NCBI GenBank assembly: GCA_017936785.1
Contig: JAGBEV010000013.1
Span: 62,001 to 126,000, forward strand
Length of the DNA stretch: 64,000 bases
From: Lachnospiraceae bacterium
GTDB taxonomy: Bacteria; Bacillota; Clostridia; Lachnospirales; Lachnospiraceae
Reading direction: 5' to 3'
In this document: positions 8,946-31,598 of the stretch, piece after piece
How the letters are laid out: each line of letters begins with the position of its first letter
Numbering within the stretch: the stretch's first letter is position 1
Position numbers and translations under genes: made by a program
The notes under the pieces: generated by a model
What the model was told of the DNA's origin: nothing
Seen by the model: only the letters and a program-made list of their open reading frames with translations
Databases searched by the model: none

Positions 8946-8948
8946 CGG

Positions 8949-9003: not shown

Positions 9004-9090
9004 GGAATACGTTTTTTTAATGCTATGAAACTGGCAGATATGAACATGAATAAACAAGTAAATATGAATACAGATGTAGAAGAGGATCAG

Positions 9091-9975: not shown

Positions 9976-10010
9976 AAATACAAACGTATACAATTTGACA
10001 GGAGGAGCAG

Positions 10011-10628: not shown

Positions 10629-10642
10629 GGGAGAGAAAACCG

Positions 10643-12743: not shown

Positions 12744-12775
12744 TCATAAGATTTATAAAAAGAGGATGATAACAA

Positions 12776-15041: not shown

Positions 15042-15055
15042 GGATTTTAACAGGG

Positions 15056-15640: not shown

Positions 15641-15651
15641 TAAATTTTTTA

Positions 15652-15680
15652 TTTACATGTGAAAAAGATAAAGATATAAT
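15652..15680 (+). promoter_or_regulatory. Sigma-A promoter of the ferritin gene
   Basis: TTTACA at 15652-15657 and TATAAT at 15675-15680 are separated by exactly 17 bases and lie about 28 bases ahead of the ferritin ATG. Confidence 0.8.
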
Positions 15681-15707
15681 AAGTCACAAAAAACAGGAGG
15701 TTTTAAA

Positions 15708-16220: not shown

Positions 16221-16222
16221 TC

Positions 16223-16408
16223 ATGAACAGGGATAAAGTGATCTGTCCGTGTTACCATGTTACAAAAGGTGATGTGGCGGATGCAGTAAAAAATGGGGCT
16301 TCTTCTTTTAAAGAGGTAAAAAAAGGTACCAAAGCCTGTAAAGGATGCGGAAAGTGCAAGAAAAAGGTAAAAAAACTGACAAAAAAATTGCTGGAAAAAG
16401 AAACATAA
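16223..16408 (+). CDS. BFD-like [2Fe-2S]-binding protein
   Basis: This 61-residue protein has the BFD cysteine pattern: CPC at Cys8 and Cys10, then CKGC at Cys39 and Cys42, which ligate a [2Fe-2S] cluster, followed by a lysine-rich helix. Bacterioferritin-associated ferredoxins pass electrons to ferritin cages to mobilise iron. The gene lies directly after ferritin and is closed by a terminator, so the two act together. A third nearby cysteine (Cys45) is unusual but does not break the motif. Confidence 0.85.
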   Translation: MNRDKVICPCYHVTKGDVADAVKNGASSFKEVKKGTKACKGCGKCKKKVKKLTKKLLEKET

Positions 16409-16414
16409 AGATAT

Positions 16415-16446
16415 GGCGCTCTGCTTTATGGCAGGGCGCTTTTCTG
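16415..16446 (+). terminator. Rho-independent terminator of the ferritin operon
   Basis: GCGCTCTGC at 16416-16424 pairs with GCAGGGCGC at 16431-16439 around a short loop, followed by TTTTCT. Confidence 0.85.
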
Positions 16447-16554
16447 TACTTTATGGTGTGAAGTTTTTAATGGGATGGCAGGCACATCATAGTAGAAACA
16501 GTTAATCTTTGATATAATTGGGGAAAGAGAGTTTAAGAAAGGAATAAAGAGAGC

Positions 16555-18597
16555 ATGGTTGAGAAAGAGTATCCGCAAAATCGCCAATGGAAGCAAAAAA
16601 CATATGCAATGCCAAAATTACCTCGGGGAGAAAAAGGGCAAAAAGATTCTTTATATAAAATTCTTTCTGCAGTTAAGCAGGGAGAATCGCCGAATAAAAT
16701 ATTGGAATTTGAAGGAAGTACCAGCAAATCAGATCTTAACCGGTTGTGTGAGTGGCTGCGTCCGGTAGGATTGGTAAATAAAGAAAATGGAACCTGGAAG
16801 CTGACAAACGAGGCGGAGAAGATTTTTTCGCAGCATGATAATATGTACTTAACGGCATTATTTTGCTCTACCATTATCTTTATGGGGGAAATATTATTTT
16901 ACCTGCAGGAACCGAAAAAAATGTCGGAACTATTGGATATTGCAGTGAACGATTATCATATCAACTGGAAAACAAAGTCTGAATTAGGTAATCGGATAAG
17001 CTGGTTTCGGGAGGTAGGTCTCATTGAATATGAAGATTATAAATTACAGTATAGCCTTACTGAAAGGGGAAGAGATTTTTTAAAAAACATTGTTATTGTT
17101 AAACCCCAGGAACTGGTAACTGAGATTGATAAAACCATAAATGAAGAACAAGTACCTATAGCGGAGTGGGCTGTAGAGCAATGTCATATAACAGATAATG
17201 AAACTATGCGAAAAATGTCGATTGGTTATATTCCGGGGAAAACCAGTGATGTTGTTTCTACAATCCAGGGATATTTACAGCTGATCGGCCAGGTTGCATC
17301 CGTTGAAGAAATTCGGCAATACTCTGCCAGCTTATATAAGATTGCAGTTTCTTCATCAAATATGTTTACTACATTTTTAGAAAGAATCAATTTTATTGAA
17401 CGTATAAGTAAAACAGACTATTGTTTATCAGAACTTGGAAGAGAATGGATGGAAGAACCAACAGAAATAAATTTGCTTGCATGTATTCACCGGAATTATT
17501 TATTTGTTTTTGAAATCTTAACTGAATTAAGGAAGGGAAGCAAGGATGCAAAGACCCTATCTACAATTGCTAAGGTTTCATACGGATTTCACAGAGAAAG
17601 TATCGATGAAATCCGCAAACGGATTATATTATTGAAAGCTGCCCAGATGATCATGGATGATGGACCGGAAAAGTACTGCCTGACAAAGAGAGGAAGTAAC
17701 TTATTAAATATTATTTCAATGGATGAAGCCATTGATACACAGGTTGATTTAGTGGATCATTCATTATCAAAGGCGGACGATGAACCTAAAGCAGCAAATG
17801 TTGAAAATATCATTACCGAATTAAGGATTGCTTCAAAGGATTCATCGAATCCCGATAGATTTGAACAGGCAATCAAGGCTGCATTTGAGTATATGGGATT
17901 TAAATCGACATGGCTGGGTGGCTCCGGCAAAACAGATGTTTTGCTGCAGGCGCAGACATCACCAAAATTTACATATACAGTTGCGGTAGATGCGAAATCT
18001 ACAGCTTCCGGAAGTGTTCCTGACGGACAGATCAGTTTTGACACCTTAGAAGAACACAGAAAAATGCATCAGACAAACTATATGGCTGTTGTAGGATGTA
18101 AATTTGAAAATGAAAGGCTAATTAAGCGTGCCCAGAAGCATCAGGTTGTATTGGTTGATGTTGATGATATGGAATACATGATCAGAACACACTATAAAAC
18201 ACCTTTGGCAAGTGAAGATTATAGAGCAGTCTTTTCGCAGTCCGGCAAAGTGGATGTATCAGTACTGGATAGTGCGATCAGTAAAATCAGCAGATATGGA
18301 TTGCTTGTAGATGCGATTATGTCGTGCCTTGTTAAAGAAAGCACGGATGAAGTGACTGAAGGAATTCTGACAGTAAAAGAGATATATCGTTCTGTACGGG
18401 ATGATGTCCGATTTAGTGAAAAACCTGAATTGACGGAGCTGGAAAATGTTATCGGATTGCTTTCTTCTCCTTTGATCTGTTGTATCGGAACAACCAAAGA
18501 AGGATATTATGCCATTGGTTCTTTGGCAGAAGCAAGTAATAAATTCAACTTTTATGCGAAGGCATGTAAGAATCGGTTACAGCTTACATCTATTTGA
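16555..18597 (+). CDS. PD-(D/E)XK restriction-like nuclease with winged-helix repeats
   Basis: In this 680-residue protein, residues about 1-400 hold several helix-turn-helix/winged-helix units, each ending in a phrase like LTERGRDFL, LSELGREWM or LTKRGSNLL. Residues about 435-570 form a nuclease fold: a helix with FEQAIKAAFEYMGF, then WLGGSGKTDVLL (Asp461) and a strand AVDAKS (Asp479, Lys481), the D...(D/E)XK arrangement, followed by EEHRKMH. It resembles solitary restriction or Mrr-like endonucleases. No methyltransferase partner is adjacent. It is the first accessory gene after the ferritin operon; cleavage of foreign or modified DNA is the likely role (inference). Confidence 0.75.
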   Translation: MVEKEYPQNRQWKQKTYAMPKLPRGEKGQKDSLYKILSAVKQGESPNKILEFEGSTSKSDLNRLCEWLRPVGLVNKENGTWKLTNEAEKIFSQHDNMYLTALFCSTIIFMGEILFYLQEPKKMSELLDIAVNDYHINWKTKSELGNRISWFREVGLIEYEDYKLQYSLTERGRDFLKNIVIVKPQELVTEIDKTINEEQVPIAEWAVEQCHITDNETMRKMSIGYIPGKTSDVVSTIQGYLQLIGQVASVEEIRQYSASLYKIAVSSSNMFTTFLERINFIERISKTDYCLSELGREWMEEPTEINLLACIHRNYLFVFEILTELRKGSKDAKTLSTIAKVSYGFHRESIDEIRKRIILLKAAQMIMDDGPEKYCLTKRGSNLLNIISMDEAIDTQVDLVDHSLSKADDEPKAANVENIITELRIASKDSSNPDRFEQAIKAAFEYMGFKSTWLGGSGKTDVLLQAQTSPKFTYTVAVDAKSTASGSVPDGQISFDTLEEHRKMHQTNYMAVVGCKFENERLIKRAQKHQVVLVDVDDMEYMIRTHYKTPLASEDYRAVFSQSGKVDVSVLDSAISKISRYGLLVDAIMSCLVKESTDEVTEGILTVKEIYRSVRDDVRFSEKPELTELENVIGLLSSPLICCIGTTKEGYYAIGSLAEASNKFNFYAKACKNRLQLTSI

Positions 18598-18602
18598 TTT
18601 TA

Positions 18603-18734
18603 GAGGGATCTTTAAAACTGCATACACTAAAGCAGCAGGTTAATAATAATCTGATGAAATATTTTTCGAGTGAAGAGGTTAGTGTCATATATCAAAGGCT
18701 ACAGCCTTTAATGAAGGACATGCTGGAGAAATAG
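18603..18734 (+). pseudogene. Possible 3' fragment of a MarR-type regulator
   Basis: The open frame ending at TAG 18732-18734 encodes a peptide finishing VNNNLMKYFSSEEVSVIYQ and then LQPLMKDMLEK, which resembles the closing helices of MarR regulators. It has no start codon or binding site and no complete gene upstream, so I treat it as a remnant. Confidence is low because the piece is short. Confidence 0.3.
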
Positions 18735-18769
18735 TCTGAGTCTGATAAGATATTTAATTTGATGGGTCA

Positions 18770-18882
18770 CTCATCTATTCCTTGTTCGAAGAGAATGGTT
18801 ATTTGTATAATGATTTTAGAGTGTGTGACATTTTAAAAATAGGTAAAAAGAAAGATATTGTAATTACAAGGGATAAATAGAG
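18770..18882 (+). pseudogene. Short coding remnant of unknown origin
   Basis: A frame ending at about 18880 reads EENGYLYNDFRVCDILKIG and continues KKKDIVITRDK before its stop. It has coding-like composition but no start. It looks like the tail of a lost gene; the parent is not recognised. The rest of the gap from 18598 to 18957 holds only AT-rich sequence and the GAGGAGGTG site of the next gene. Confidence 0.25.
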
Positions 18883-18957
18883 CATAAAGTGGCTTTTTAG
18901 GACAATATGTTATATATTATAAATAGTGTAGTGTGACAATCCTGAGGAGGTGTTTAA

Positions 18958-20439
18958 TTGTCTAAGAGGGTAATTAATTTGTTGAATAAATATGGTCCCA
19001 TGCTTTCCGGTAAATTGGCGCATATTTTTGAGAAAGAGTACGGGGTGTCCAATATGGCGGCAAGACAAGCATTGTCGCGGGCAAAAAATCCGGTAAATAA
19101 AATTTGTACACTTTCTTTTGAGAAAAACCAAAAATTTTTTTATCTGGAAAGCCAATATATGTCACAAGGGTATATAGAAGGACTATTAACTGCTATTAAA
19201 GAGAATTCACAGGTTAATTGGATTTACATTTGTGCATTCCGGTCACAACATGGATATGTTTCAAAAGATATTCTTCCGGCACTTGTTGCTTCTCCCATTA
19301 AGAATGTAAAAGGGCATAAACTGCATCAAAGAGTAATTGAGGATCTGTTGAACTGTCGTATTATTGAGGAATTTGATGAAACGCGCTGGAAATTATGCGA
19401 TTGGGTGCCGGTTTCCGGTCAGAATCTGGCTCGTGCAACCGGAGTGGAAGTTGTAAAAAAGCAAATTGTCAACGATTTTGCAAAATGGGCGAGAAATATA
19501 AATTTTATTGGATATGATTCATCGAAAACTCTTGTTGAGTCAGCAGAATTTGCAAACTTTCAATGGGCATTTACGGCTCCATCCTATGTTCAACCCTTAT
19601 ATGATATGGCATTACAAAAAAATGGATTTATAGTAGGGGACATTTTTTATGGACAGGCTGCAACAGTGGAAGATGTGCGTTTCTTTATTGATAAGCTTTC
19701 CATCATTCGGAATTTTAAAAAACTTCCGGCTTTTCTCCCTATACTATTAGTAGAAAGTGTTACTCCTGATGCTTTAAAACTTCTAAAGGAAAATAAAGTA
19801 GTTGTTGCATTTATCAAGAACCTTTTTGATGAAAGATATACAGAGCTGCTTGCTGAGATTGTAAATGTCTTTACAAATGCCAGTGCGATTATAGCAAAAA
19901 ATCCGGGAAAGATCGAGGAGCTTTTTCTGGAATTGTCAAAAGCAGAGGGGCGTTATAATGACATTGTGGGCGATATGTTCGAGTTGATGGTGGGATATTA
20001 CTATCAACATATTGGATGCAGATACATATCCATTGGAAGGACTATTCAAATTCCTGATTCCGGTAAAATGAATGAACTGGATGTGTTAGTAGAGCGGGAT
20101 GGTAAAATAATAGTTGTAGAATGTAAAGCAACCCGATCAGCAATTAGTGAAGTTTTTGTAAAAAAATGGCTGAATATTAACATACCTCAGATACGAAAAT
20201 GGTTAAATGAAAAGTATCCAAATATTAAGAATTTTGAATTTCAGTTGTGGTCCTTAGGTGGATTTACTCAGGAAGCATTAGAATTATTAAAAAAGGATGC
20301 TGAAAAGGCAAAAAAATATGAAATTTCTTTTTTTAATAAGAAACAAATTATAGAAATGGCTAAACAGCATAATGTGCAACCTATCATAGATATCCTGCAT
20401 CAACATCTTAAGCCGCCGCTTGAAAAAATTGTTTCATAA
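18958..20439 (+). CDS. Helix-turn-helix protein with C-terminal PD-(D/E)XK nuclease domain
   Basis: This 493-residue protein starts with TTG, chosen because GAGGAGGTG lies in the right place; no upstream ATG exists. Residues about 1-70 look like a winged helix (LLNKYGPMLSGKLAHIF, then NMAARQALSRAK). The middle is unassigned. Residues about 335-420 form a restriction-like fold: GDMFELMVGYYYQ, MNELDVLVERDGK (Asp375) and IIVVECKATRS (Glu388, Lys390), a clean D-ExK site. As with the nuclease upstream, no methylase or helicase partner is nearby. Sequence-directed cleavage of foreign DNA is the best guess. Codon use is AT-rich like the rest of the island. Confidence 0.7.
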   Translation: MSKRVINLLNKYGPMLSGKLAHIFEKEYGVSNMAARQALSRAKNPVNKICTLSFEKNQKFFYLESQYMSQGYIEGLLTAIKENSQVNWIYICAFRSQHGYVSKDILPALVASPIKNVKGHKLHQRVIEDLLNCRIIEEFDETRWKLCDWVPVSGQNLARATGVEVVKKQIVNDFAKWARNINFIGYDSSKTLVESAEFANFQWAFTAPSYVQPLYDMALQKNGFIVGDIFYGQAATVEDVRFFIDKLSIIRNFKKLPAFLPILLVESVTPDALKLLKENKVVVAFIKNLFDERYTELLAEIVNVFTNASAIIAKNPGKIEELFLELSKAEGRYNDIVGDMFELMVGYYYQHIGCRYISIGRTIQIPDSGKMNELDVLVERDGKIIVVECKATRSAISEVFVKKWLNINIPQIRKWLNEKYPNIKNFEFQLWSLGGFTQEALELLKKDAEKAKKYEISFFNKKQIIEMAKQHNVQPIIDILHQHLKPPLEKIVS

Positions 20440-20567
20440 ATGATCAAAAAAGGAAATTAAATGTTTTAATCCTATAACGTAAGATGATAGTACAATAATT
20501 AAAATAGCAGACTTTAATAAAATGTTAAAATATTGTGGAATAGAAAATTCCTTAGAGGTGTCCTCTT

Positions 20568-20900
20568 ATGCAGCGAACCATTGACTATTATAATGAAAAT
20601 GCACAGATTTTTGCAGATGGAACAGCAGATGTTGATTTTGCACAGATTCAGGATCAGTTTTTGGAATTGTTGCCTAAAAAAGCATATATTTTGGATTTTG
20701 GCTGCGGATCTGGAAGAGACACTAAATACTTTTTGGAACGAGGGTTTCAGGTAGAAGCAATTGACGGGTCTGAAAAGATTTGTAAATTGGCAAGTGAGTA
20801 TACGGGTATTTATGTAAGAAAAATGCTGTTTCATAAGTTGGATGAAATAGAAAAATATGATGGGATATGGGCATGTGCATCTCAGTGGAATGTGGGCTGA
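20568..20900 (+). pseudogene. Truncated class I SAM-dependent methyltransferase
   Basis: The N-terminal 105 residues are a normal small methyltransferase: IDYYNENAQIFADGT at the start, then the SAM-binding YILDFGCGSGRDTKYFLERG (motif I) and VEAIDGSEKICKLAS (motif II). The conserved DGIWACAS of this family should lead into a leucine-rich segment and another 80 residues, but homology stops at about 20884 and the frame ends in a few foreign codons. The break is exactly where the HNH nuclease sequence starts in another frame, so a deletion or recombination joined two genes. Probably non-functional. Confidence 0.8.
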
Positions 20901-21822
20901 CGGAGGAATCAGGGACAGCCTTGAAAAGGCTGTTTTAAAGCTTCATGAGTTAAGCGGATTGCAGAACAATGCTTCCAAAGTGGAGATCAAAAATAAGATT
21001 AAGGAATTTGATCAGGAATTACATAAGGAAAAAATGATCTTAACCCGGAATGTACCTTATAAGGCTTTATCCGGATTTGCAAACAGAGGATCAGAACGAA
21101 TTGATCTAAATAACAGTGCAGGAATCATGATGGCTTATTATAATCAGATTAGTGCGACACAAAAGCCACTTCCATATATATTTGGCGATCAAAAAGGCTT
21201 AGAACGGAAAATTACATTTCAGGATTCATGGATTCAAATGATTCAGGACAATACAGTTTCCATATTAGGATGGATACAATACGAAAAAGTATGCTGACTC
21301 CAAAACAATAATCCGGAAGTTCCCGGACTTGTATATAAATTAGCTCCATTGGATGAAAAAATGCGTAAGCTGGGGCATGTTCGTAAATTGTGGGAAGGGA
21401 TATTAGATATTACAAATATTATGGATGTATTTAAAGATGAACCCATCAGAAAAGAGGCTTATGATGTGGACCATTTTATTCCGAGATCATTTGTCATGAA
21501 TGATGAATTGTGGAATTTGATGCCAATGGATTCTTCTTTGAACTCCACCAAAAGTAATAAATTACCTCAGTGGGAGAAATTCTTTACAAGGTTTGCCAAT
21601 AATCAATATATAATGTACGAATTGGTATATGAAAAACCGGGAATAAGAAAGTTATATGAATCGTGTTACAGGGATAATCTGCATTCTATCTGGGCGATTC
21701 GGGAACTGTATCGAAAAGGGAATTCCAAGGAAGAGTTTTTTGGTATATTGAAGAAAAATATGCGTCCTGTGTATGATTCGGCGAGAAGGCAGGAGTATGA
21801 GATGTGGGTGTCCAATATTTGA
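20885..21822 (+). pseudogene. HNH endonuclease, 5'-truncated and interrupted by a stop codon
   Basis: One frame runs from the junction at about 20885 to 21822, broken only by TGA at 21295-21297. Before it the protein reads IQYEKVC and after it LQNNNPEVPGLVYKLAPLD, so the stop most simply replaces a TGG tryptophan codon. The C-terminal part holds the HNH site: DVDHFIPRSF, then NLMPMDSSLNSTKSNKLP. The true N-terminus is missing. The protein resembles stand-alone HNH nucleases of accessory regions. An ATG at 21349 could start a short product of 157 residues that would keep the whole catalytic motif, so residual activity cannot be excluded. Confidence 0.75.
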
Positions 21823-21983
21823 ATGTAGATGGAGCTGGGTTATATCAATAAGAGATATTTTAAAAAGTGTAATTAAGTTTATAAAAATGAAATAAAAGGA
21901 ATATTCATTTGCAAAAGGAGAAAATGCAACATTGAATATGATAAGTGTAAGAAATGGATATATTTTGTGGAAGGATAGAAATA

Positions 21984-22246
21984 ATGGGAACAAACATTAA
22001 ACCAATAGTTAAAAAATAGAGGATAACGTTCAGGGATTAAGGGATTTTCAAGAATTATTGTATATGGGAGTTTCTGAAAAAGAAGGAAATATTTTATTGA
22101 GATTTCCAATTGTTTATATCCATAATTGGAAAAATCATGATCAGTATGAGATTTATATTGGAGAATCCATCCATTTTATTAAAAGAACAAAGCAACATTA
22201 TACTAAAGGAAGAGATGAGGATAACTGGCGGCATCAAATATTGTCA
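21984..22246 (+). pseudogene. GIY-YIG nuclease (DUF2075-type protein), N-terminal remnant
   Basis: An ATG at 21984 after AAGGA begins GTNIKPIVKK, then a run of six A bases shifts the frame; with one more A the protein would continue IEDNVQGLRDFQELLYMG and on through PIVYIHNWKNHDQYEIYIGES, a GIY-YIG type start, to FIKRTKQHY. This matches proteins that carry a GIY-YIG domain ahead of a DUF2075 helicase-like part. After NWRHQILSH, at about 22246, homology ends abruptly and integrase sequence begins. The helicase part is missing. Confidence 0.65.
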
Positions 22247-22660
22247 CACAAAGACAAACGCCGGAACGAGGAAGCTGCCCAAGATGGAGAATGTGTTCCG
22301 GTACTTTCAGGCGATTATTGAGGACAGGGAAAAACTGAGATTTGAAAATATGATGGACAGTCACACCGGATTCCTTTTCACAGATAAAGGTGGGCTACCG
22401 TTGGTAGCAATGCATTGGGAATACTGATCCAACCATATGGTCAAACGACACAATGACATCTACCAGGTGCAGATTATGAATATCACCCCCACGTCTGCTG
22501 CCATACCTGCTGCTGTAACATGGCGTAGTCCGGCATGGAACCAAAGACGCTCAAATACCTGATGGGACATTCGGATATTGGCGTAAAACTGAACACTTAC
22601 ACGCATCTTGGGCTGGAGGATGGCACTGCGTTTTTTGCACTTAAGAAAATTGAAATGTGA
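22247..22660 (+). pseudogene. Tyrosine recombinase (Tn916/Tn1549-type integrase) fragment 1
   Basis: The sequence encodes the C-terminal half of a conjugative-transposon integrase: TNAGTRKLPKMENVFRYFQ, then HTGFLFTDKGGLPLVAMHW, NHMVKRHNDIYQVQ, and finally KTLKYLMGHSDIG with NTYTHLGLEDG. It is dead: TGA at 22425-22427, frame shifts near 22478 and 22525, and the catalytic HxxR box has become HVCCHT, so the arginine is lost. There is no start or N-terminal half. It records a past mobile element. Confidence 0.8.
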
Positions 22661-23559: not shown

Positions 23560-23735
23560 TGCTTACTAGAATAGGGAAGATTCCTATAACAGAGGATGTG
23601 GCACAGATGTTTCAAGCAATCATTGAGGACAGGAAGCCGCCGAAGATAGAGAAGGTAATTGACGGCTACACAGGATTTCTTTTCTACGATGATGACGGCA
23701 ATCCCCTTGTAGCAATGCTACACGGCAGAGAGGCT
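23560..23735 (+). pseudogene. Tyrosine recombinase (Tn916/Tn1549-type integrase) fragment 2
   Basis: About 55 codons encode GKIPITEDVAQMFQAIIED, then VIDGYTGFLFYDDDGNPLV and AML, the same internal stretch found in integrase fragment 1 but clearly different in sequence. Homology stops at about 23722 where HW should follow. No other part of the gene is present. It shows a second, separate integrase from the same family. Confidence 0.7.
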
Positions 23736-23756
23736 CCTGTTATACTGGGGCCTTTT

Positions 23757-23826
23757 CTGATTTATATTATATTTCAGAAAAAATACATTGACAATTAATT
23801 AGACTCTGAAATATAATATAAATCAG
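23757..23826. repeat. Perfect 22-bp inverted repeat flanking a promoter
   Basis: The arm at 23757-23778 (CTGATTTATATTATATTTCAGA) is repeated exactly in reverse complement at 23805-23826, with 26 bases between. Each arm is itself a partial dyad (CTGA...TCAG with a TATA core). The right arm covers the -10 box of the promoter described next. Two identical operators bound by one regulator is the simplest reading. Confidence 0.8.
23788..23817 (+). promoter_or_regulatory. Sigma-A promoter of the three-gene cassette
   Basis: Consensus TTGACA at 23788-23793 and TATAAT at 23812-23817 with an 18-base spacer. The -10 box lies within the right arm of the 22-bp inverted repeat. It should drive the DUF1413 gene at 23857 and those after it. 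Confidence 0.8.
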
Positions 23827-23856
23827 AGAGAGTGTAATGAGAACGGAGGCTTGGAT

Positions 23857-24204
23857 ATGGATAAAATCAATGTGCAAATTTTATTTACAAAAACTGAATT
23901 TGAACAGTTAAAAGTGGAGGCTGACAAGTTGGGATTGACAGTTCCGCTTTATATTAAGGGGGAAGTTCTGAAAGATGATATTTTTGGAAAGCATTATCAA
24001 GAACTAATTGAAAAAGTAAATGCCTTACCTAGTGGAACCAAGTTTAATATTAAGGCTCTTTTTGGTGTAGAATGGACGATGGAGAAAGGCATTAAACTAA
24101 ACTTAGGAAAGACTTTTTTTGGAAGAGTAGACAGTGGGATTGTTGATAATGTGCGTTGCATTGGAAAAGACAGTTCAAATGTAATGTGGTACGAGAAGAA
24201 GTAG
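23857..24204 (+). CDS. DUF1413 domain protein
   Basis: This 115-residue protein starts at ATG 23857, seven bases after GGAGG; a TTG at 23851 is too close to that site. The N-terminus looks like a ribbon-helix-helix fold (INVQILFTKTEFEQLKVEA, then LGLTVPLYIKGEVL) and the second half carries the DUF1413 pattern: GTKFNIKALFGVEW, LNLGKTFFGRV and DSSNVMWYEKK. The N-terminal fold could bind DNA, so it may be the regulator of the palindromic promoter just upstream (inference). It is the first gene of a compact three-gene set. Confidence 0.75.
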   Translation: MDKINVQILFTKTEFEQLKVEADKLGLTVPLYIKGEVLKDDIFGKHYQELIEKVNALPSGTKFNIKALFGVEWTMEKGIKLNLGKTFFGRVDSGIVDNVRCIGKDSSNVMWYEKK

Positions 24205-24215
24205 GAGGTATGGAG

Positions 24216-24500
24216 ATGACAAAGGAACAGGAACTGATGAAATTTTTACATGAAAAAGTTTTTGATCCGATTTTAAATTCAAAAGATGCTCCAGCAAATA
24301 TTAAGAGTGGAGTGAATCTTACAATAGGTAGAATGAATAAATTGAGTGCTAAAAAAATGGTTCATTATTTCTGGTCTGCATTAGCCACAGATAATGCGAT
24401 TACTTTTTCTAAAAAAATGAAAGAAGAGGGACTTTCAAGATTTGAAGATGTATTTGAGGAGTTTAGAGATAAGTTCAATGATGAATGGTTGAGACAGTAG
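24216..24500 (+). CDS. Small protein of unknown function (second gene of cassette)
   Basis: This 94-residue protein is predicted all-helical, highly charged and without membrane segments or cysteines. It begins TKEQELMKFLHEKVFDPIL and ends FEEFRDKFNDEWLRQ. The ATG at 24216 is chosen because AGGAGG lies seven bases upstream; the ATG at 24210 is too close. It follows the DUF1413 gene by eleven bases and precedes the next gene by twelve, so all three share a transcript. I do not recognise a family; it could be an adaptor or antitoxin-like partner. Confidence 0.7.
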   Translation: MTKEQELMKFLHEKVFDPILNSKDAPANIKSGVNLTIGRMNKLSAKKMVHYFWSALATDNAITFSKKMKEEGLSRFEDVFEEFRDKFNDEWLRQ

Positions 24501-24512
24501 CTATGGGGTTCT

Positions 24513-25532
24513 ATGGAGAAAATAAAATTATTGGAACTCCACAAATGTTGTGGGCAATATAAAATCACTGTCAACAACATATTGTCGTATAAAGGCGTAT
24601 GCGGAGTATGGGTAATGTATGATAATCATAATCGATTGCTGGAGGTTGCGCAAACTTCCAATGTTTTTGAAGAATTAGAGTACGATTTGTTATGGCTGAT
24701 GAAAGACTATTCAAATGAGTTGAATCTGAAAAAAAGATACACAGCAAGGAGATTATTTGATTTTAATAAAAAATTTAATGTTCTCGCATGTGACAAGAAT
24801 AGAACAACTGCTAAATATAGAAATATAGCAGAAAATTCAGAAACTATAGTAGTGTATTTGATTATAGAGGAAAGAGCCATAAATAAAGAAAAAACTGTTC
24901 GTGAAGAAATTGAATTAGAAATAGCAATAGATAATCAGGCATTATATTGGAATGCTTATGGTAGCCAACGTAAATTAGCAAAAAACTATTATAAACAAAA
25001 ATGTAAATTGCATAAGGAGGACAATATGGCACAAAATTTAGTATCAGAAGAGCAAGTAAAAGAGGCATTACAGATTAGCAATTTTCGTGAAATATCTAAA
25101 GATAAGATTATGGAGTTTGTATCGCTTATACCGAATATGGATAAAGAGGTGGCTATTGCAATTATTAATCAGTTTCCGGCATATGCAGATTCAGCCAATA
25201 ATATGGTTGCGCAGTTAAATGTTATGTGCGACAACGTTATAAAGGATAATAATTCGAGTCAGAAGGATGCTGTAGAAGCATATAAAATGATTCTTCAAGA
25301 TTTAAGTGAACTTTTGAAAAAAGAGGATATTTCTAAAGAAGAACGTGATGAAATTACAGAGAAAATGATATTGGTAGCTGATAAAATCTCTGCGAAAGAT
25401 ACTGAAAATAAAGATTTTTTAAATGGAATTATTAGGTATGGTGCACCTATTGTTGGTGGTGCATTATTATTAGGTGCAGCAATACTTGGAGTGAATGTGA
25501 AAGGGACAAAACTTCCAACTATTAAAAAGTAG
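24513..25532 (+). CDS. Two-part protein: GIY-YIG-like N-terminal domain and helical C-terminal domain with membrane anchor
   Basis: This 339-residue frame has two distinct halves. Residues 1-171 contain GVWVMYDNHNRLLEVAQTS and later YLIIEERAIN plus ALYWNAYG, a layout like GIY-YIG nucleases but with key Gly/Tyr residues changed; this is weak. Residues 172-339 are a helical domain ending in one membrane helix, APIVGGALLLGAAILGVNV, and a short lysine tail. Met172 (ATG at 25026) is preceded by a near-perfect AAGGAGG, so the C-terminal half may be made separately or may once have been a separate gene. A membrane-attached effector is a reasonable guess given the cassette context; no function is known to me. 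Confidence 0.65.
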   Translation: MEKIKLLELHKCCGQYKITVNNILSYKGVCGVWVMYDNHNRLLEVAQTSNVFEELEYDLLWLMKDYSNELNLKKRYTARRLFDFNKKFNVLACDKNRTTAKYRNIAENSETIVVYLIIEERAINKEKTVREEIELEIAIDNQALYWNAYGSQRKLAKNYYKQKCKLHKEDNMAQNLVSEEQVKEALQISNFREISKDKIMEFVSLIPNMDKEVAIAIINQFPAYADSANNMVAQLNVMCDNVIKDNNSSQKDAVEAYKMILQDLSELLKKEDISKEERDEITEKMILVADKISAKDTENKDFLNGIIRYGAPIVGGALLLGAAILGVNVKGTKLPTIKK

Positions 25533-25716
25533 TTGCGAAAATCCTTAGTAGTAGGGATTCCTGTTTTACTAATATTTCTATTACTAACAGGTAGTCACGA
25601 CTTGCTAAATTATGCTATAATTTGCCTAGTTGACATATGAAAAAGAAATTATAACAAAAAGCCGGAATATCTTGCGAAATGGGGTATTTCTCGGCATTTT
25701 AAGGAGTTTGATAACA
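25533..25716. other. Intergenic region with hairpins ahead of the phosphatase stub
   Basis: AATCC(N9)GGATT-type and CCTGTT...AACAGG hairpins lie just after the cassette (about 25550-25610) and may stop transcription, though U tracts are poor. A third hairpin, GCCGGAATA...TATTTCTCGGC (about 25662-25696), is followed by TTTTAAGGAG, the binding site for the truncated phosphatase reading frame. Confidence 0.4.
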
Positions 25717-25770
25717 ATGATAAAAATACTTTTCATCTGCCACGGCAAACCGATCGGCAAATATTCATAG
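25717..25770 (+). pseudogene. 5' stub of a low-molecular-weight phosphatase gene (left boundary of element)
   Basis: ATG at 25717 follows AAGGAG and encodes MIKILFICHGKPIGKYS before TAG at 25768. The first ten residues are the N-terminus of low-molecular-weight protein tyrosine phosphatases (compare KIKILMVCHGNICRSPM in the complete gene at 30948). Agreement ends right after the shared bases TGCCACGGCAA at 25738-25748. I interpret this as the original gene start, cut by insertion of the 5.2-kb segment to its right. Confidence 0.6.
25738..25748. other. Putative left attachment-site core
   Basis: TGCCACGGCAA occurs here and at 30978-30988, each time at the same codon position of a phosphatase gene start. 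The complete right copy (TTGCCACGGCAA) is a short dyad, TTGCC/GGCAA around two bases, which suits the core site of a tyrosine recombinase. Confidence 0.55.
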
Positions 25771-25888
25771 CCAACGCAAATCGTGTCAAAACGGTGCAAA
25801 TCGCGGCAGCGGAAATGGCGTTTACACCGTTTTTACTACGATTCAACTACATCCTATACTATGGCAGAGTGTCGTTGGGGGCAAATTG
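25757..25888. repeat. GCAAAT repeats next to the left boundary
   Basis: GCAAAT occurs at 25757, 25776, 25796 and 25881; three copies extend to GCAAAT(C/T)G, and the first three are spaced 19 and 20 bases apart on one face of the helix. They may be arm-type integrase sites (inference). The rest of 25771-26085 shows no convincing gene. Confidence 0.4.
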
Positions 25889-26080
25889 CGGCAAAACGTG
25901 GCATTTAAGGGATAATAATTATGAATGTAAAAAATAATGTTTGTTTGCTATGCGGGTATCTTCAGTTTTTGTATGGAGGATTGTAGTGGGATAAGTTTAC
26001 AAAGTAGGTGTTGATACTGGTGTCAGGTTTTAAGTATTGCAGTTTTGGGTTGGAATGATCTTTTGAAGGATTCTACTGCA

Positions 26081-26110
26081 TGAAAATGCGATAACTCGCA
26101 AAAATTTTCA
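26081..26110. promoter_or_regulatory. Operator-like palindrome 1 upstream of the AAA/DUF4143 gene
   Basis: TGAAAA-TGCGA-TAAC-TCGCA-AAAA-TTTTCA: inner arms TGCGA/TCGCA and outer arms TGAAAA/TTTTCA. Bases 26087-26110 match the second copy at 26162-26185 in 23 of 24 positions. Confidence 0.7.
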
Positions 26111-26117
26111 TTAGGAG

Positions 26118-26146
26118 TTGTAAAACCAATCCTGACGGGGTATAAT
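26118..26146 (+). promoter_or_regulatory. Promoter between the twin palindromes
   Basis: TTGTAA at 26118-26123 and TATAAT at 26141-26146 are 17 bases apart. The promoter lies between the two palindromes and points at the ATPase gene. Confidence 0.65.
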
Positions 26147-26149
26147 GCT

Positions 26150-26191
26150 ACTGAATAATTTTGCGATAACTCGCAAAAACTTTCAGTAGAA
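26150..26191. promoter_or_regulatory. Operator-like palindrome 2 upstream of the AAA/DUF4143 gene
   Basis: Outer arms CTACTGAA and TTCAGTAG enclose the same core TTTGCGA-TAAC-TCGCAAA as palindrome 1. The two cores are 75 bases apart, about seven helical turns, so they face the same side. Confidence 0.7.
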
Positions 26192-26205
26192 AGAAGGATC
26201 ATGAT

Positions 26206-27459
26206 ATGGAAATTAAGAGAGACATCTATTTGAATAAGCTCATCAATAAAAAGCATAATGGACTTATCAAGGTGGTAACTGGCATCCGTCGCTGCGGAAA
26301 GTCTTACTTGTTGTTTAATCTGTTCAAGGATCATTTGCTGGCAGAAGGAGTGGATGAACAGCACGTTATAGAAATTGCGTTTGACTCCTTTGAGAATAAG
26401 CGTTTTCGGCATCCAGAAGTTTTATATCCCTATCTCAAGGAGCAGATTAAAGATGATGGAATGTATTATGTACTGATGGATGAGGTGCAGCTTTTGGGAG
26501 AATTTGAATCCGTATTAAACAGCCTGATCCGTATGAAAAATGTGGATGTATATGTGACAGGAAGCAATGCCCGTTTTTTGTCCAAGGATGTGATTACCGA
26601 ATTTCGGGGACGGGGAGATGAAGTTCATATGCATCCTCTCAGTTTTGCTGAATTTATGTCTGTCTATTCGGGGACGAAACAGGACGGCTGGAATGAATAT
26701 ATGCTTTACGGCGGACTGCCGCCTATCATGAACATTTCAAGTCCGGAGGAAAAGATTAATTTCCTCAAGTCGCTGTTTGAGGAGACCTATATTTCGGATA
26801 TTGTAGGCAGACATAATGTACGCAACCGGGCAGAATTAGAGGAACTTCTGAACATTCTCTCATCTGCTATCGGCTCGCTTACAAACCCGACAAAGTTGTC
26901 GGCTACTTTCAAAAGTGTTAAGCAGAAAACTATCAGCAACACAACCATCAAAAGGTATATCGACTATCTTTGTGATTCCTTTCTGATCGACAGTGCTGTC
27001 CGATATGATATTAAGGGTAAGAGGTATATCGACACACCGGTTAAATATTACTTTACCGATTTGGGATTGCGCAATGCCCGTCTCAATTTCCGTCAACTGG
27101 AGGAAACTCATACTATGGAGAATATCATCTTCAATGAACTGAAGATACGCGGCTTCAATGTGGATGTGGGCGTTATCACTCTGAATAAAACCAATGAAAA
27201 AGGTCATGGAATTCGAAAACAGTTGGAAATTGATTTTGTTTGCAATAAAGGATCCAAGCGTTATTATATCCAGTCAGCCTATGCGATTCCGGATCAGGCA
27301 AAGATGGAACAGGAGCAGCGCTCCCTGATGTTGACTGGCGATTTCTTTAAGAAGATCATCATCACGAAAGAAGCACCTGCACCGTATTACAATGACGATG
27401 GGGTGCTGGTTATGAGTGTCTATGATTTCTTGCTGAATGAGGGCAGTCTGGATAATTGA
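26206..27459 (+). CDS. AAA ATPase with DUF4143 domain
   Basis: In this 417-residue protein, residues about 20-160 are an AAA_14 P-loop domain with Walker A TGIRRCGKSYLLF, Walker B YYVLMDEVQLL and the sensor stretch VYVTGSNARFLS; residues about 195-370 match DUF4143, a domain with a restriction-like core (here LEIDFVCNKGSKRYYIQ). The family is abundant in gut Firmicutes and its function is poorly known; some members are linked to defence or mobile elements. GAAGGATC precedes the ATG. The gene is controlled by the twin-palindrome promoter and lies inside the putative 5.2-kb element, just upstream of the TIR-like gene, with which it may share a transcript. Confidence 0.9.
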   Translation: MEIKRDIYLNKLINKKHNGLIKVVTGIRRCGKSYLLFNLFKDHLLAEGVDEQHVIEIAFDSFENKRFRHPEVLYPYLKEQIKDDGMYYVLMDEVQLLGEFESVLNSLIRMKNVDVYVTGSNARFLSKDVITEFRGRGDEVHMHPLSFAEFMSVYSGTKQDGWNEYMLYGGLPPIMNISSPEEKINFLKSLFEETYISDIVGRHNVRNRAELEELLNILSSAIGSLTNPTKLSATFKSVKQKTISNTTIKRYIDYLCDSFLIDSAVRYDIKGKRYIDTPVKYYFTDLGLRNARLNFRQLEETHTMENIIFNELKIRGFNVDVGVITLNKTNEKGHGIRKQLEIDFVCNKGSKRYYIQSAYAIPDQAKMEQEQRSLMLTGDFFKKIIITKEAPAPYYNDDGVLVMSVYDFLLNEGSLDN

Positions 27460-27490
27460 TTGATGGAAAAGTTTTTTGATGGTGATAATG

Positions 27491-28876
27491 ATGAATAAAA
27501 AATGTACGATTTTCTATTCATGGCAGTCAGACATAAAAGTGAGCAGAAACTTTATTTCTGATTGCTTGGATAAATTACGAAAAAAGATAAAAGACATTAT
27601 ACTTTGTGATATTGATCGAGATACACAGGGGTTAGCGGGGGCACCGGATATAGGAGATTCAATATATGAGAAAATAGATAGTGCTGATATTTTTATCGCA
27701 GATGTGACTATTATAAATGGAGATTATGCTGGACGTAAAACTCCGAATCCTAATGTTATGATTGAACTGGGGTATGCAATTAAATCATTGGGTTGGGATC
27801 GAATTATATTATTATATGATAAAGATTTTGGTGAAATTGAAGAGCTTCCTTTTGATATTAATCATCGAAGAATTACCTCTTTTACCTTAGAGAGTTGTGA
27901 AGAAAAGGCAAGGATGCGTGATTATGTATTGTCTTGTATAACGGCAACAATCCAGATATTAGAGCAAGAACATCGACTCTATGGTGGTTCTGCGGAAACC
28001 GTTAAAGCACAGTCGGCTCTTGGACAATTAATTCGGACAGGGCTCGATCGTATATGGGCGGCATATGTGGAGCATAAAAGAGTAGATGAGTTTGACCGCT
28101 ACGATAAGATACCTCCTATTAATGAAGCACAGCTTGTGTTAGTGGAAAAAGCACATGATTTGCTTACAGATGAACAGTATCAGTTAGCGAATATGATCCT
28201 GTTTCATATGAAAATGTCACGGCTTGGTAATGATGAAATGGCTGGCTGGGAATTTGCGGATCAGTTGATTCCAGAATGTTTTGAACCTCTTTGTATAGAG
28301 TTTGCAGATAATATATGTAGACTTCCAATTGAACGTATTTTGAGGAAGCCTGTAATAGATCTTCTTAATGCGTTATCTTTTGACAATCATATTGATTATG
28401 AAGAAAAGAGATTGTGTGATGAAAAAATAGTGTTTTCCACGGCATCTAATGAATTGTATGTTTGTGATACACAAGGAAAAACTTTGTGTAAAGGTAGAAT
28501 GGAAAAAGGGTGTTTCACTGGTTATAAATCTACTTATGACTACAAGGGAGAATATGTGGCAGGTAAAAGGCATGGTAGAGGAATAGAATATTGTTTGTCT
28601 ATTTATGATGTAGATTCTCATTTTTTAGTACGAGAAGGTATATGGGAAAATGATCAATTTATTGAAGGAAGAATTAATGGAGTTTTGGCGGAAATTGTGA
28701 ACGGTATCGTTGAATTTGTTAAAGGGTCTGAAGGGGGAATCATAACAAAGCAGGATTGGGAATTTAGGGTATGTCTCCAGTCCGAAGAACAGGATTATCA
28801 ATATGTAGATGTAAATTTAAAAGATGGTAATTATACAATCATTGAAGGAAGCATGAGAGGTGTTCCAAAAGGATAA
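27491..28876 (+). CDS. TIR-like nucleotide-binding domain protein with a MORN repeat
   Basis: This 461-residue protein begins with a TIR-like domain (about residues 1-150): CTIFYSWQSDIKVSRNFI, IDSADIFIADVTII, then NPNVMIELGYAIKSLGW with the conserved glutamate expected for NAD+ cleavage, and LPFDINHRRIT. The pattern is that of CAP12/Pycsar-type TIR-like effectors, which degrade NAD+ or bind nucleotides in phage defence. The middle (about 165-330) is an unassigned helical domain. The C-terminal part has a MORN motif, YKGEYVAGKRHGRGIEY. No cyclase gene is adjacent. The start is uncertain among ATGs at 27479, 27488 and 27491; none has a strong binding site. Confidence 0.75.
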   Translation: MNKKCTIFYSWQSDIKVSRNFISDCLDKLRKKIKDIILCDIDRDTQGLAGAPDIGDSIYEKIDSADIFIADVTIINGDYAGRKTPNPNVMIELGYAIKSLGWDRIILLYDKDFGEIEELPFDINHRRITSFTLESCEEKARMRDYVLSCITATIQILEQEHRLYGGSAETVKAQSALGQLIRTGLDRIWAAYVEHKRVDEFDRYDKIPPINEAQLVLVEKAHDLLTDEQYQLANMILFHMKMSRLGNDEMAGWEFADQLIPECFEPLCIEFADNICRLPIERILRKPVIDLLNALSFDNHIDYEEKRLCDEKIVFSTASNELYVCDTQGKTLCKGRMEKGCFTGYKSTYDYKGEYVAGKRHGRGIEYCLSIYDVDSHFLVREGIWENDQFIEGRINGVLAEIVNGIVEFVKGSEGGIITKQDWEFRVCLQSEEQDYQYVDVNLKDGNYTIIEGSMRGVPKG

Positions 28877-29055
28877 AGTTATAATTTTGATGACAAAGAC
28901 CGGATAGATCCAATATGCAAGGTAATATATGCAATTGGAGGATTATGCGGAGTTTTTGGGGAGGTGATAGGACAAATTGCAAAGGCTTATGGGGTAGTAT
29001 AGAAGAACAGTTGGCTGAAATAATGCCAGAATAGTTATGTTTAATTGTAGAAAGG
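28877..29055 (+). other. Gap with an open frame continuing the TIR-MORN gene
   Basis: After the TAA at 28874-28876 the same frame stays open for about 43 codons and encodes IDPICKVIYAIGGLCGVFG, then a hydrophobic stretch, up to TAG near 29001. It may be a former C-terminal tail cut off by a stop mutation. No start or binding site is seen. Confidence 0.35.
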
Positions 29056-29064
29056 GTGTTTAAT

Positions 29065-29862
29065 ATGGAATACAGAGGAATTGGACAAGAAGTGAATATA
29101 CCATTATTTAAATATTATGGTAATGTCGATTACGCAAGAGATGCAATTGAAAATAGTAGAATTCATTTAGAGCTCCCTTCTGCATATAATGATATATATG
29201 ATAGTAGTCAAAGGATTGGTGCAGAAGATTTATATCGTATTCATTTTGGAAGTTTTCTTGACGTTGCTATTATAAGGAAGTATTGTGATTTTTTGAATAA
29301 TAATGAGATTGAAGCAATAAAAAAGAAAGACCTTTCAGTAGGAGAAGTAATAGATTATTTATATAGTATAAACAAAGATATAGATAGAGATAAATTTATA
29401 CAAGAGAGTTGTAGGTTTTTTACACATGGAAAGTATATTTTTCAAGCAGATAACAATAAAATATCTTGTTTCTCTGAAGTAAATGATTCGTTGTTAATGT
29501 GGGCGTATTATGCTAATAATTATGCGGGAATTTGTGTGCGTTTTAATGCACCAAAAGATGCGATTTTGTCAAAGCATTGTAGAAAAGTGCAATATACAAA
29601 TCATTACATTTCAGATTATAGTTTTGGAAATTATTTTAGAAAGAGTATTCAATGGGTGCATGAGCAAGAGTGGCGTATTGTTTGTGATATGGAAGAAGAA
29701 TATATACCAATTAATTCCATAGATGCACTTTATACTGGAATTAGAATGGATGAAACTGTTGAGCGACAAGTGCTAGCACTGGGGAGAAAATATAACTTAG
29801 AAGTATATAAAATGAGAGTTTCAGATATAAGATATGAAATACTCTTCGACAGGGTATTATAG
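29065..29862 (+). CDS. DUF2971 family protein
   Basis: This 265-residue protein shows the DUF2971 pattern: LFKYYGNVDYARDAI and IHLELPSAYNDIYDSS near the start, the hallmark ISCFSEVNDSLLMWAYYANN in the middle, AGICVRFN, and WVHEQEWRIV towards the end. DUF2971 proteins often occur in phage-defence islands and beside abortive-infection genes, but have no proven activity. The ATG at 29065 follows AAAGGGTG; an in-frame GTG at 29056 lies inside that site. Composition is very AT-rich. It is the last intact gene of the putative 5.2-kb element. Confidence 0.85.
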   Translation: MEYRGIGQEVNIPLFKYYGNVDYARDAIENSRIHLELPSAYNDIYDSSQRIGAEDLYRIHFGSFLDVAIIRKYCDFLNNNEIEAIKKKDLSVGEVIDYLYSINKDIDRDKFIQESCRFFTHGKYIFQADNNKISCFSEVNDSLLMWAYYANNYAGICVRFNAPKDAILSKHCRKVQYTNHYISDYSFGNYFRKSIQWVHEQEWRIVCDMEEEYIPINSIDALYTGIRMDETVERQVLALGRKYNLEVYKMRVSDIRYEILFDRVL

Positions 29863-29899
29863 ATATGAATTAGACTGGTTACCTGTAGTGGTAGTTGGT

Positions 29900-30760
29900 C
29901 TTTTTTTATGTGTGCCAGAGTGTGTATAAGGGCGGACGCAGTTATTCATCTATACACAGTATCTGGGATGTTGTAAGACCTGCCTTTGCAATGGCGGTAG
30001 AAGATGACCTCATCCGTAAGAATCCCTTTGACTTTGAACTTGCAAAAGTACTGATAAACGATTCTGTCAAGCGTGACGTTCTGACACCAAAACAAGAGTG
30101 GGATTTCTTGAAACTTATTAAGGAAGATAAACATTTCAGCCAATTTTATGATGGTATGCTTATTTAACACAGGGATTCGTATTAGTGAGTTGTGCGGCTT
30201 AAAAATTCTTGACATAGATTTGCAGGAGCGAACAATAAACGTGCATAAGCAGTTACAATATACTAGTGGGAAAAAGCATATATCGAGTTGACTAAGATGG
30301 ACGCAGGGACAAGAGTACTCCAATGAGTGACGAAGTATACAAAGCGTTCAAGCGTGTCATTCTGGTAAAAAAAGCTAAAGGTGGAGCAGAATGATTGACG
30401 GTGTGAGCAGCTTTTTGTTTCTGGACGATAAGGTAAAGCCGATGGTTGCCTACCATTGGGAAAAGAAATTTCAGCGTTCCGTTGAGAAATATAATAAAAT
30501 TTATAAAGTGGAATTGCCAAAGATTATACCCCATGTATGCAGGCATACCTATTGTACGAATATGGCGAAGTCGGGAATATCAGTAAAGACGTTACAGTAT
30601 TTAATGGGGCATAGTGATATAAGTGTGACAATGAATGTATACACACATCTTGAACTGGCAGATGCCAAGGACGAATTTGGAAAAACTAAAAGTGAGAGAG
30701 CAGGTAAAAAAGGAAAAGGCATTGTTAGATATGGAATATGTCAAGCGAGAATTAAAGAAA
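29900..30760 (+). pseudogene. Tyrosine recombinase (Tn916/Tn1549-type integrase) fragment 3
   Basis: Three frames together encode most of an integrase: SYSSIHSIWDVVRPAFAMA and IRKNPFDFELAKVLINDS, then TGIRISELCGLKILDIDL with the first catalytic arginine, then LPKIIPHVCRHTYCTNMAK (HxxR box) and LMGHSDISVTMNVYTHLEL with the tyrosine. Frame shifts fall near 30160, 30290 and 30390, and the N-terminal DNA-binding domain is missing. It lies at the right end of the 5.2-kb segment, next to the phosphatase gene, exactly where an element's own integrase is expected. It is inactive as a single protein. Confidence 0.8.
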
Positions 30761-30947
30761 GTGAGTCCGGTATGAATTACGATGGTAAAAAAAGGATAGC
30801 TGTACGAGTGGTAAAATTTACTGCCATTTGTACAGCTTTTACCTACCAAGATAGGGTAAAATATGATAAGATATATCATGACAGGGGTTTAAAGGGAAAC
30901 GCCAAGCCCCCTAGTAAAATCAAGGAAATTCGAGGTTATACTAAGAT

Positions 30948-31412
30948 ATGCGAGATAAAATAAAAATCCTCATGGTTTGCCACGGCAACATCTGCCGTTC
31001 CCCCATGGCAGAATTTATTTTCAAAAACCTAATAACCACCCGCGGCATCGCCGATCAGTTCTATGTCGCCTCCGCTGCCACCAGCTCAGAAGAAATCGGC
31101 AACCCCGTTTATCCCCCTGCCAGAAGAAAACTAAATGAACATGGCATCAACTGTGACGGAAAGCGGGCTGTCCGCATGAAAAAAGAAGATTATGACAAAT
31201 ACGACCTTCTGATAGGAACAGAACAGATCAATGTGCGCAACATGGAAAGAATTGCAGGCGGCGACCCTCAAAATAAAATGCACCGGCTTCTGGACTACAG
31301 CAAACACCCCCGGGATATTTCCGACCCCTGGTACACAGGCGATTTCGACAAGGCATATGAAGACATCCTGGAAGGTTGTGAAGCTTTATTAGAATATCTG
31401 CTGGCAAAATAA
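30948..31412 (+). CDS. Low-molecular-weight protein tyrosine phosphatase
   Basis: This 154-residue enzyme has the active-site loop VCHGNICRSPMAE (nucleophile Cys11, Arg17; CX5R) and the acid DPWYTGDFD near residue 124. It removes phosphate from tyrosine or, in some bacteria, arginine or sugar phosphates. The sequence changes from AT-rich to GC-rich at about 30965, within the first codons, which fits an element boundary there. The ATG at 30948 has only a distant GAGG, so expression may have changed since the insertion. The core TGCCACGGCAA lies at codons 11-14. Confidence 0.92.
   Translation: MRDKIKILMVCHGNICRSPMAEFIFKNLITTRGIADQFYVASAATSSEEIGNPVYPPARRKLNEHGINCDGKRAVRMKKEDYDKYDLLIGTEQINVRNMERIAGGDPQNKMHRLLDYSKHPRDISDPWYTGDFDKAYEDILEGCEALLEYLLAK
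30978..30988. other. Putative right attachment-site core
   Basis: TGCCACGGCAA, identical to 25738-25748 and at the equivalent codons for CHG(N/K) of the phosphatase. With one base to the left it forms the TTGCC/GGCAA dyad. Confidence 0.55.
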
Positions 31413-31522: not shown

Positions 31523-31525
31523 GCG

Positions 31526-31598
31526 TGCACCATCAGGGACTCGAACCCTGGACAAATAGATTAAGAGTCTACTGCTCTACCAACTGAGCTAATGGTGC
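31526..31598 (-). tRNA. tRNA-Lys(CTT)
   Basis: The minus strand folds as a full cloverleaf: acceptor GCACCAT/ATGGTGC, D-arm GCTCAGTTGGTAGAGC, anticodon stem GTAGA/TCTAT with loop CTCTTAA (anticodon CTT), and T-arm CAGGGTTCGAGTCCCTG. The discriminator base is A and CCA is not encoded. Its promoter and terminator flank it, so it is transcribed alone. No partial copy of its 3' end was found elsewhere in the window, so it is not the attachment site of the island. Confidence 0.97.

Follow-up and report, generated by a model that had tools for sequence, protein, structure and literature searches.

Introduction

SXT/R391 is a large conjugative element of Gammaproteobacteria that supplies a replacement promoter and codons to its target gene, prfC. 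Integration of this element at the 5' end of prfC is described in a passage of PMC3715440, and Tn916 is described there as inserting at many AT-rich sites. For the dusA-associated islands and prophages, sections of PMC4482086 describe a conserved gene with an integrase at its 5' end, replacement of that 5' end by the island with its own sequence and upstream promoter-like sites, and a typical island size of 30-60 kb. Here, a comparable arrangement is reported for a low-molecular-weight protein tyrosine phosphatase gene in 64,000 bp of a Lachnospiraceae bacterium (assembly GCA_017936785.1, contig JAGBEV010000013.1, positions 62,001 to 126,000; hereafter the window), in which a 5,240-bp element, termed element B, lies between a short stub of the phosphatase gene and the complete gene. 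As in those sections on the dusA islands, the 5' end of the target is replaced by element sequence; however, the target is the catalytic loop of the phosphatase (LMWPc, PF01451) rather than dusA, the integrase is Tn916-type, and the stretches between stub and gene measure 2.2-14.1 kb in the 14 loci listed. The locus shares with SXT/R391, as portrayed in that passage, a fixed coding-sequence target at a gene start, whereas no conjugation gene was found among the Pfam-scanned proteins of B. The likeness to the Tn916 family consists of PF00589 and PF02920 in the two integrases tested from relatives and of Tn916-Xis in one cargo protein, but the phosphatase-site clade uses a single conserved coding core. 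The site also resembles the defence islands at integration hotspots (for example PMC10121019) in holding variable defence candidates at one chromosomal spot; it differs from them in that a single integrase clade determines the spot and the gene start is rebuilt by each element.

No report of an integration site in this phosphatase gene was found among the open-access papers that the literature searches listed, and the passages searched in PMC12884075, PMC5704250 and PMC10763512 do not name the phosphatase as such a site. Replacement of a 5' end is a kind of integration already known; within the reach of these searches, the target, the integrase clade and the stacking appear to be new. We consider it very likely that a clade of Tn916-type integrases targets the C-H-G-N codons of the phosphatase, that the 5' end is rebuilt at each insertion and that elements stack at the site. 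Comparison of sequences suggests that small mobile elements, many with likely anti-phage genes, have repeatedly inserted at this one spot in the gene start.

Results

Element B is bounded by two exact copies of an 11-bp core, TGCCACGGCAA, at 25738-25748 (left) and 30978-30988 (right), both on the forward strand, 5,240 bp apart and in identical codon register, as had been noticed in an earlier reading made from the sequence alone (the sequence-only reading); with one core copy counted, B occupies 25749-30988. The left core lies in a phosphatase stub, the putative attL of B (25717-25770, +), an open reading frame (ORF) of 17 codons that reads MIKILFICHGKPIGKYS followed by a stop. The right core, the putative attR, falls within the catalytic-loop codons of a complete phosphatase gene (30948-31412, +), which begins MRDKIKILMVCHGNICRSP, is chimeric at the core, matches PF01451 at 5.9e-30 and has yfkJ as its closest solved relative in the Protein Data Bank (1.7e-27). 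The core encodes C-H-G-N, the beginning of a CHGNICRSP stretch, which is the catalytic loop of a low-molecular-weight phosphatase. The similarity of stub to gene ends at the core, and the longer repeat around both cores agrees at 23 of 29 positions. On its own the 11-mer would be weak evidence, because three matches occur in the window when one mismatch is allowed, against a shuffle mean of 0.84, and because five of its seven exact copies in the genome are unrelated ones beyond the window cores that lack stub context; there is no third exact copy in the window. A weight matrix built on 61 sites scores the two window sites at 54.8 and 42.1, values inflated by the presence of both sites in the training set, and the rest of the window at no more than 5.1. 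The GC content in 500-bp bins is 0.35-0.39 across 29500-30999 and 0.474 in the bin from 31000; this agrees with the switch in base composition claimed by the sequence-only reading, although its placement within the first codons of the gene is finer than such bins resolve.

The recurrence of this arrangement was assessed at 127 phosphatase loci, 80 from named genomes, 46 from relatives and that of the window, which became 125 when L163 and L176, in which the catalytic-loop pattern was not found, were left out; some species may be represented in both the named and the relative set (the upstream DNA of L013 and L160 is 97.7% identical). The 991,709 bp upstream of the 125 phosphatases contain 19 stub motifs on the coding strand, one of which (L044) is probably due to chance, whereas their reverse strand contains none; downstream, two are present in 759,887 bp with both strands scanned. 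Occupancy was counted in the 107 loci with at least 1 kb of upstream sequence (the other 18 being shorter), with a threshold of at least 30 bits for an integrase or remnant. On the same strand, an integrase or remnant ends within 4 kb before the gene in 33 of the 107, the pattern for which the sequence-only reading had suggested looking in other genomes; a stub is present in 17 and either feature in 38. No opposite-strand integrase lies within 4 kb upstream in any of the 107 loci. Two loci have an integrase within 4 kb downstream, a distance covered in 62 named loci, one relative and the window.

Comparison of stubs with genes, and of loci with each other, places the breakpoint at the core or a little ahead of it. 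Of 18 stub-gene pairs, 8 have cores that agree over at least 10 bases; L041 and L143, with CWG in both copies, are among these. In L010 and L079 the integrases are 99% identical, the 36 bases before the core 100% and the phosphatase bodies 48%; the corresponding values are 97%, 83% and 48% for L166 and L178, and 93%, 81% and 59% for L171 and L175. DNA identity up to the core is 96%, 95% and 89% for these three pairs respectively, running at 88-100% per 25-base bin from -150 to -25 and at no more than 0.68 per 50-base bin beyond the core, and in the last 25 bases before the core it is still 1.00 in L010/L079. Consistent with this, in Mantel tests on 21 loci the upstream region correlates with the integrase (r 0.295; 0 of 2000 permutations) and not with the phosphatase body (r 0.009; 864 of 2000 permutations). 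Two metagenomic contigs from a viral collection, L227 and L228, are 99.9% identical over 3,894 bp, with no difference in any of the seven 50-bp bins sampled between -1000 and the core; they agree through the last core base, and the first mismatch is at +11 after the core start. Beyond the core, L228 runs into an intact phosphatase and L227 into a stop codon, giving a truncated stub, and another element. As their sequences read, the two contigs differ by an element exactly at the core, with either direction of change fitting, and L228 may represent an uninterrupted site for another element of the clade. Terminal repeats indicative of a circular form were found in none of the 79 viral loci, many of which end at the flank limit; the joined ends in L226/L227 may represent attP, or else an adjacent element in tandem.

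A clade of integrases is associated with the site. Both of those tested, from L120 and L166, are Tn916-type with PF02920 and PF00589; 25 full-length phosphatase-site integrases were aligned, and 21 full-length integrases are all oriented towards the gene, ending 166-409 bases before the loop. A profile search of 60 genomes returned 13 matches above 590 bits, all at the phosphatase site (12 beside the gene and one beside an older stub in G016), and the next seven, at 490-510 bits, lie elsewhere; given that the profile was built from phosphatase-site integrases, it is the gap in score and not the ranking that is evidence. For three of these seven, the 310 bases following each integrase hold no phosphatase motif. 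In a midpoint-rooted tree of 113 integrases, the 25 sampled from the phosphatase site and all 21 of viral contigs with a downstream motif fall into one clade of 78 (support 0.98), and none of the remaining 35 is at a phosphatase site or has the motif downstream. Among the 79 viral loci, 22 have the motif downstream, and in four of these it continues into NICRS.

Between its cores, B encodes three cargo proteins and an integrase, all on the forward strand. The AAA_14/DUF4143 ATPase (26206-27459) matches the PADLOC candidate family PDC-S01 at E 2.7e-117 and has a 57% identical counterpart in the phosphatase-site element of G052 (L162). The TIR-like protein (27476-28876), a candidate effector, has weak TIR matches (Pfam CAP12-PCTIR_TIR, E 2.9e-4, below the curated cutoff) and a match in one other of 150 family genomes, and the DUF2971 protein (29056-29862) matches the PADLOC candidate PDC-S31 at 3.3e-31. 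Two of the three proteins thus belong to defence families at E<=1e-8, candidate families only, and B may be said, at candidate level, to carry probable anti-phage cargo. These assignments by Pfam and PADLOC bear out the cargo named in the sequence-only reading, weakly so for TIR; its MORN label for the TIR-like protein found no Pfam match and is dropped. The decayed tyrosine integrase that it placed at the right end is likewise confirmed: in the putative Tn916-type integrase of B (29949-30700), the first third of the protein is unmatched and the remainder is interrupted, with two TGA and one TAA codons within profile positions 218-401. Pfam finds PF00589 in one of the two integrase pieces of the window and PF02920 in neither. 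To the right of the integrase is the right arm of B (30701-30977, +), which would be the replacement upstream region and first codons and shows homology up to the core, with matches reaching it in L034 (84% over 205 bp), L078 (80% over 271 bp) and L065 (72% over 1063 bp). A promoter scan found one site in the right arm against a shuffle average of 1.4, hence no evidence of a promoter there, and three sites around the stub against 0.8 in shuffles, one of them on the forward strand. Neither a conjugation family nor the conjugation module of a Tn916-like conjugative transposon was found among the scanned proteins of B (Pfam). In the rest of the genome no intact clade integrase was found, the sole other match at E<=1e-40 being on contig C21 (L208; 289 bits), outside the clade in the tree. 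With its own integrase broken and no intact source of another found, B is probably stranded, and the stack would be frozen today. Directly before the AAA_14/DUF4143 gene, at 26070-26189, there are two 45-bp copies, 82% alike and 75 bp apart, each with TGCGATAACTCGCA, which could be a regulatory site for the cargo. To the right of the phosphatase gene is a tRNA-Lys (31525-31598, -), as in same-genus loci; it was considered as the attachment site and ruled out, given that the cores sit inside the phosphatase.

The DNA to the left of the stub is itself similar to the end of an element. Window 25538-25748 (+), the right end of a putative element A, comprises the beginning of a phosphatase gene, from its upstream region through the start codon to the first codons, and is homologous to DNA directly 5' of intact phosphatases in G008 (77%), G003 (72%) and G036 (69%; loci L121, L120 and L148); it also matches the left flanks of the stubs in L174 and L175. 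Each of the first three loci has an integrase or remnant about 2 kb upstream of the gene; in G003 and G008 it is full-length, with two further ORFs between it and the gene, and the own stub of G003 is 14.1 kb upstream. Three of the five matching loci belong to other genera, and the same-genus genomes G006 and G004 lack the region. The stub is probably not a native gene start but second-hand, its left flank being the right end of another element, and an element A of the G003/G008 type appears to lie in tandem to the left of B; elements would thus stack. The sequence-only reading had proposed one element at a native gene start: its B is borne out, whereas the flank of the stub is probably not native, and the disturbance extends to the left of 25717. 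Two integrase remnants lie there on the forward strand, (a) at 22244-22657, the C-terminal half in more than one frame, with profile matches and 60-71% amino acid identity to the L120 integrase, and (b) at 23569-23718, with 83%. These overlap in protein and are therefore separate copies; with the integrase of B, at least three integrase copies have been at the window locus. Between remnant (b) and the right end of A are three ORFs (23851-25532, +), the probable cargo of A, of which the 339-residue one has no Pfam or PADLOC match. Similar stacks are present in L166, L174 and L175.

Further to the left, Mrr-like, PD-(D/E)XK-like, methyltransferase-fragment and HNH genes (16555-21822, +), which may belong to an older element, lie between the first remnant and a ferritin gene (15708-16220, +). 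In L058 only a few bases separate the end of a ferritin gene (73% identical) from the phosphatase ATG, and this locus may represent an uninterrupted site. The phosphatase may originally have had ferritin on its left, in which case about 14.6 kb of the window would be stack, as the arrangement of this one genome weakly suggests. Such a ferritin-to-phosphatase region, for which the sequence-only reading proposed to look in relatives, is seen besides the window in L058 only among the 125 loci. Synteny of ferritin within the genus was tried and rejected: eight same-genus genomes have no ferritin match, and in the 29 relatives that have one it is not near the phosphatase. A DNA search of window 8900-22000 in the same genus gave scattered matches only.

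Other genes associated with the site vary in kind. The 14 stub-to-gene stretches, a list that leaves out L008, L142 and L158 as under 1.3 kb, include some with more than one element. PADLOC was applied to 20 of the 62 non-window cargo ORFs, mostly larger ones and chosen unblinded, and 12 of the 20 proteins match at E<=1e-8, among them AriA-like, Lamassu-like, PD-Lambda-2-like, PDC-S01 and PDC-S02 proteins; the matches to WYL (L041) and mad3 (L175) are probably generic. Among control proteins downstream of the gene (10 of the 20 listed), two match, one a generic ATPase and one a strong JetA. A Wadjet JetA match at 1.8e-229 was seen in L064, a Hungatella metagenome-assembled genome, at 12289-13671, about 5 kb downstream of the phosphatase, with the stub 7.2 kb upstream. 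Pfam, applied to 59 cargo proteins, found MobA/MobL, Rep_trans, Tn916-Xis and phage capsid in one protein each, and the element of G003 encodes a primase-like protein and a small terminase. Given these mobilisation, replication and phage genes among the cargo, different vehicles share the integrase. The description of a small defence carrier in the sequence-only reading therefore fits B at candidate level but not every member of the site.

Discussion

In the reading that we favour, the attachment core would be the C-H-G-N codons in the catalytic loop of the phosphatase, used by one clade of Tn916-type tyrosine integrases, and the mobile form would bring a copy of this core together with an upstream region, a start codon and about ten initial codons of its own. 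Strand exchange, which we infer to take place at the core, would reduce the old 5' end to a stub to the left of the element and join the 5' end of the element to the gene body on the right; the gene would remain complete and would be expressed from the element, with an element-supplied upstream region and first codons. Both junctions would keep a core, at which later elements could enter, so that stacks grow and defence cargo collects. Integration into a gene start with a replacement 5' end had already been proposed in the sequence-only reading, and it is supported by the stubs in 17 of 107 loci, by the breakpoints at or just before the core and by the L227/L228 pair. In the window, A and B would lie in tandem, the integrase of B having decayed. 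Either order of arrival, A first or B first, would fit the map, because the gene-proximal core or the core of an existing stub could each take a new element.

It could be argued that the arrangement arose without a dedicated site. Given that the integrase has the Tn916 DNA-binding domain PF02920, it might be an ordinary low-specificity insertion of a Tn916-like element that landed in the phosphatase by chance. However, this is extremely improbable: all 13 top-scoring integrases in the 60 genomes are at the phosphatase site, the 21 full-length integrases all face the gene and end at 166-409 bases from the loop, and the same clade, strand and core recur in unrelated hosts. A partial duplication, in which the stub is a truncated pseudogene left by an ordinary rearrangement and the intervening genes are unrelated, would also explain why the stub encodes phosphatase residues. 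We regard this as very unlikely, given that similarity in the window ends at the core, that the left flank of the stub is the right end of an element, that stubs recur upstream in 17 of 107 loci and never on the reverse strand, and that L227 and L228 differ by an element exactly at the core.

A single-element version, with B alone and the stub as the original chromosomal gene start, has a small chance of being correct. B by itself accounts for both cores, no left stub of an older element is seen, and several genomes might simply have in common, as a native promoter region, the 211 bp that precede the stub. Nevertheless, these 211 bp match pre-gene DNA in L120, L121 and L148, all of which have an integrase or its remnant some 2 kb upstream, as well as the flanks of the stubs in L174 and L175. 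Of these five loci three are in other genera, same-genus G006 and G004 lack the region, and the window has two further integrase remnants upstream.

Several observations weigh against the favoured reading, that of a clade of Tn916-type integrases dedicated to the phosphatase core. Of the 18 stub-gene pairs, seven differ at third codon positions only and three in amino acid (L008, CHG/CLG; L158, CWG/CHG; L171, CYG/CHG); this imperfect identity may be explained by drift or stacking. In the last 25 bases before the core, identity has already fallen to 0.80 in L166/L178 and 0.76 in L171/L175. Stubs are present without a recognisable integrase upstream of the gene in L008, L022, L064, L142 and L143, and a weight-matrix scan of the window for the left stub of A gave nothing that stands out (best 4.0 at 21910; reverse-strand best 1.8). 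No same-species empty site for B was found; in G002, the contig has just 108 bp ahead of the matched gene. Phosphatase-site integrases supplied the profile and the greater part of the tree, so that high scores arise partly by construction, and the divergent L174 integrase (312 bits) is outside the tree sample. Furthermore, the clade may include other targets, because ten of its members have no motif downstream: L250, L253, L267, L279, L281 and L297 in 8.9-10 kb, and L236, L246, L251 and L263 in 3.5-6.7 kb.

A bolder proposal, possible but doubtful, is that the site works as an assembly line for a defence island. One integrase clade, common to mobilisable and phage-satellite-like elements, would reopen the core repeatedly, unrelated vehicles would stack their cargo, perhaps with the newest beside the gene, and each arrival would take over the transcription and N-terminus of a signalling phosphatase. 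Were this true, expression of the phosphatase would be set by whichever element adjoins the gene. Apart from this proposal, the site represents an integration hotspot in Clostridia with a left boundary that can be read from a short stub, by which small, hard-to-delimit defence elements become easy to extract; the stretches bounded by stubs already hold Lamassu-like, PARIS AriA-like, PD-Lambda-2-like and several PADLOC candidate genes. The site also preserves a history of successive insertions and lends itself to testing how an enzyme gene tolerates a target at its active-site codons.

Some further observations were made at this and related loci. In the window, a 493-residue protein at 18958-20439 has no Pfam match and weak CARF/PD-(D/E)XK similarity in PADLOC (best 2.8e-7), and between remnant (b) and the cargo of A, at 23756-23827, there is an inverted repeat with perfect 23-bp arms spaced 26 bp apart, which might be an operator or one end of a small repeat element. 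In L174 and L158, residual stubs lie just 104 and 156 bp before the gene and are perhaps elements deleted down to their ends. Finally, TACTAC-rich repeats follow the sister integrases of L201, L202 and L203 (490-510 bits), along with a stretch that is almost the same in all three, GGCTATACCGGCAT (GACAT in L203), and these flanks are perhaps a second fixed site, used by a related clade.

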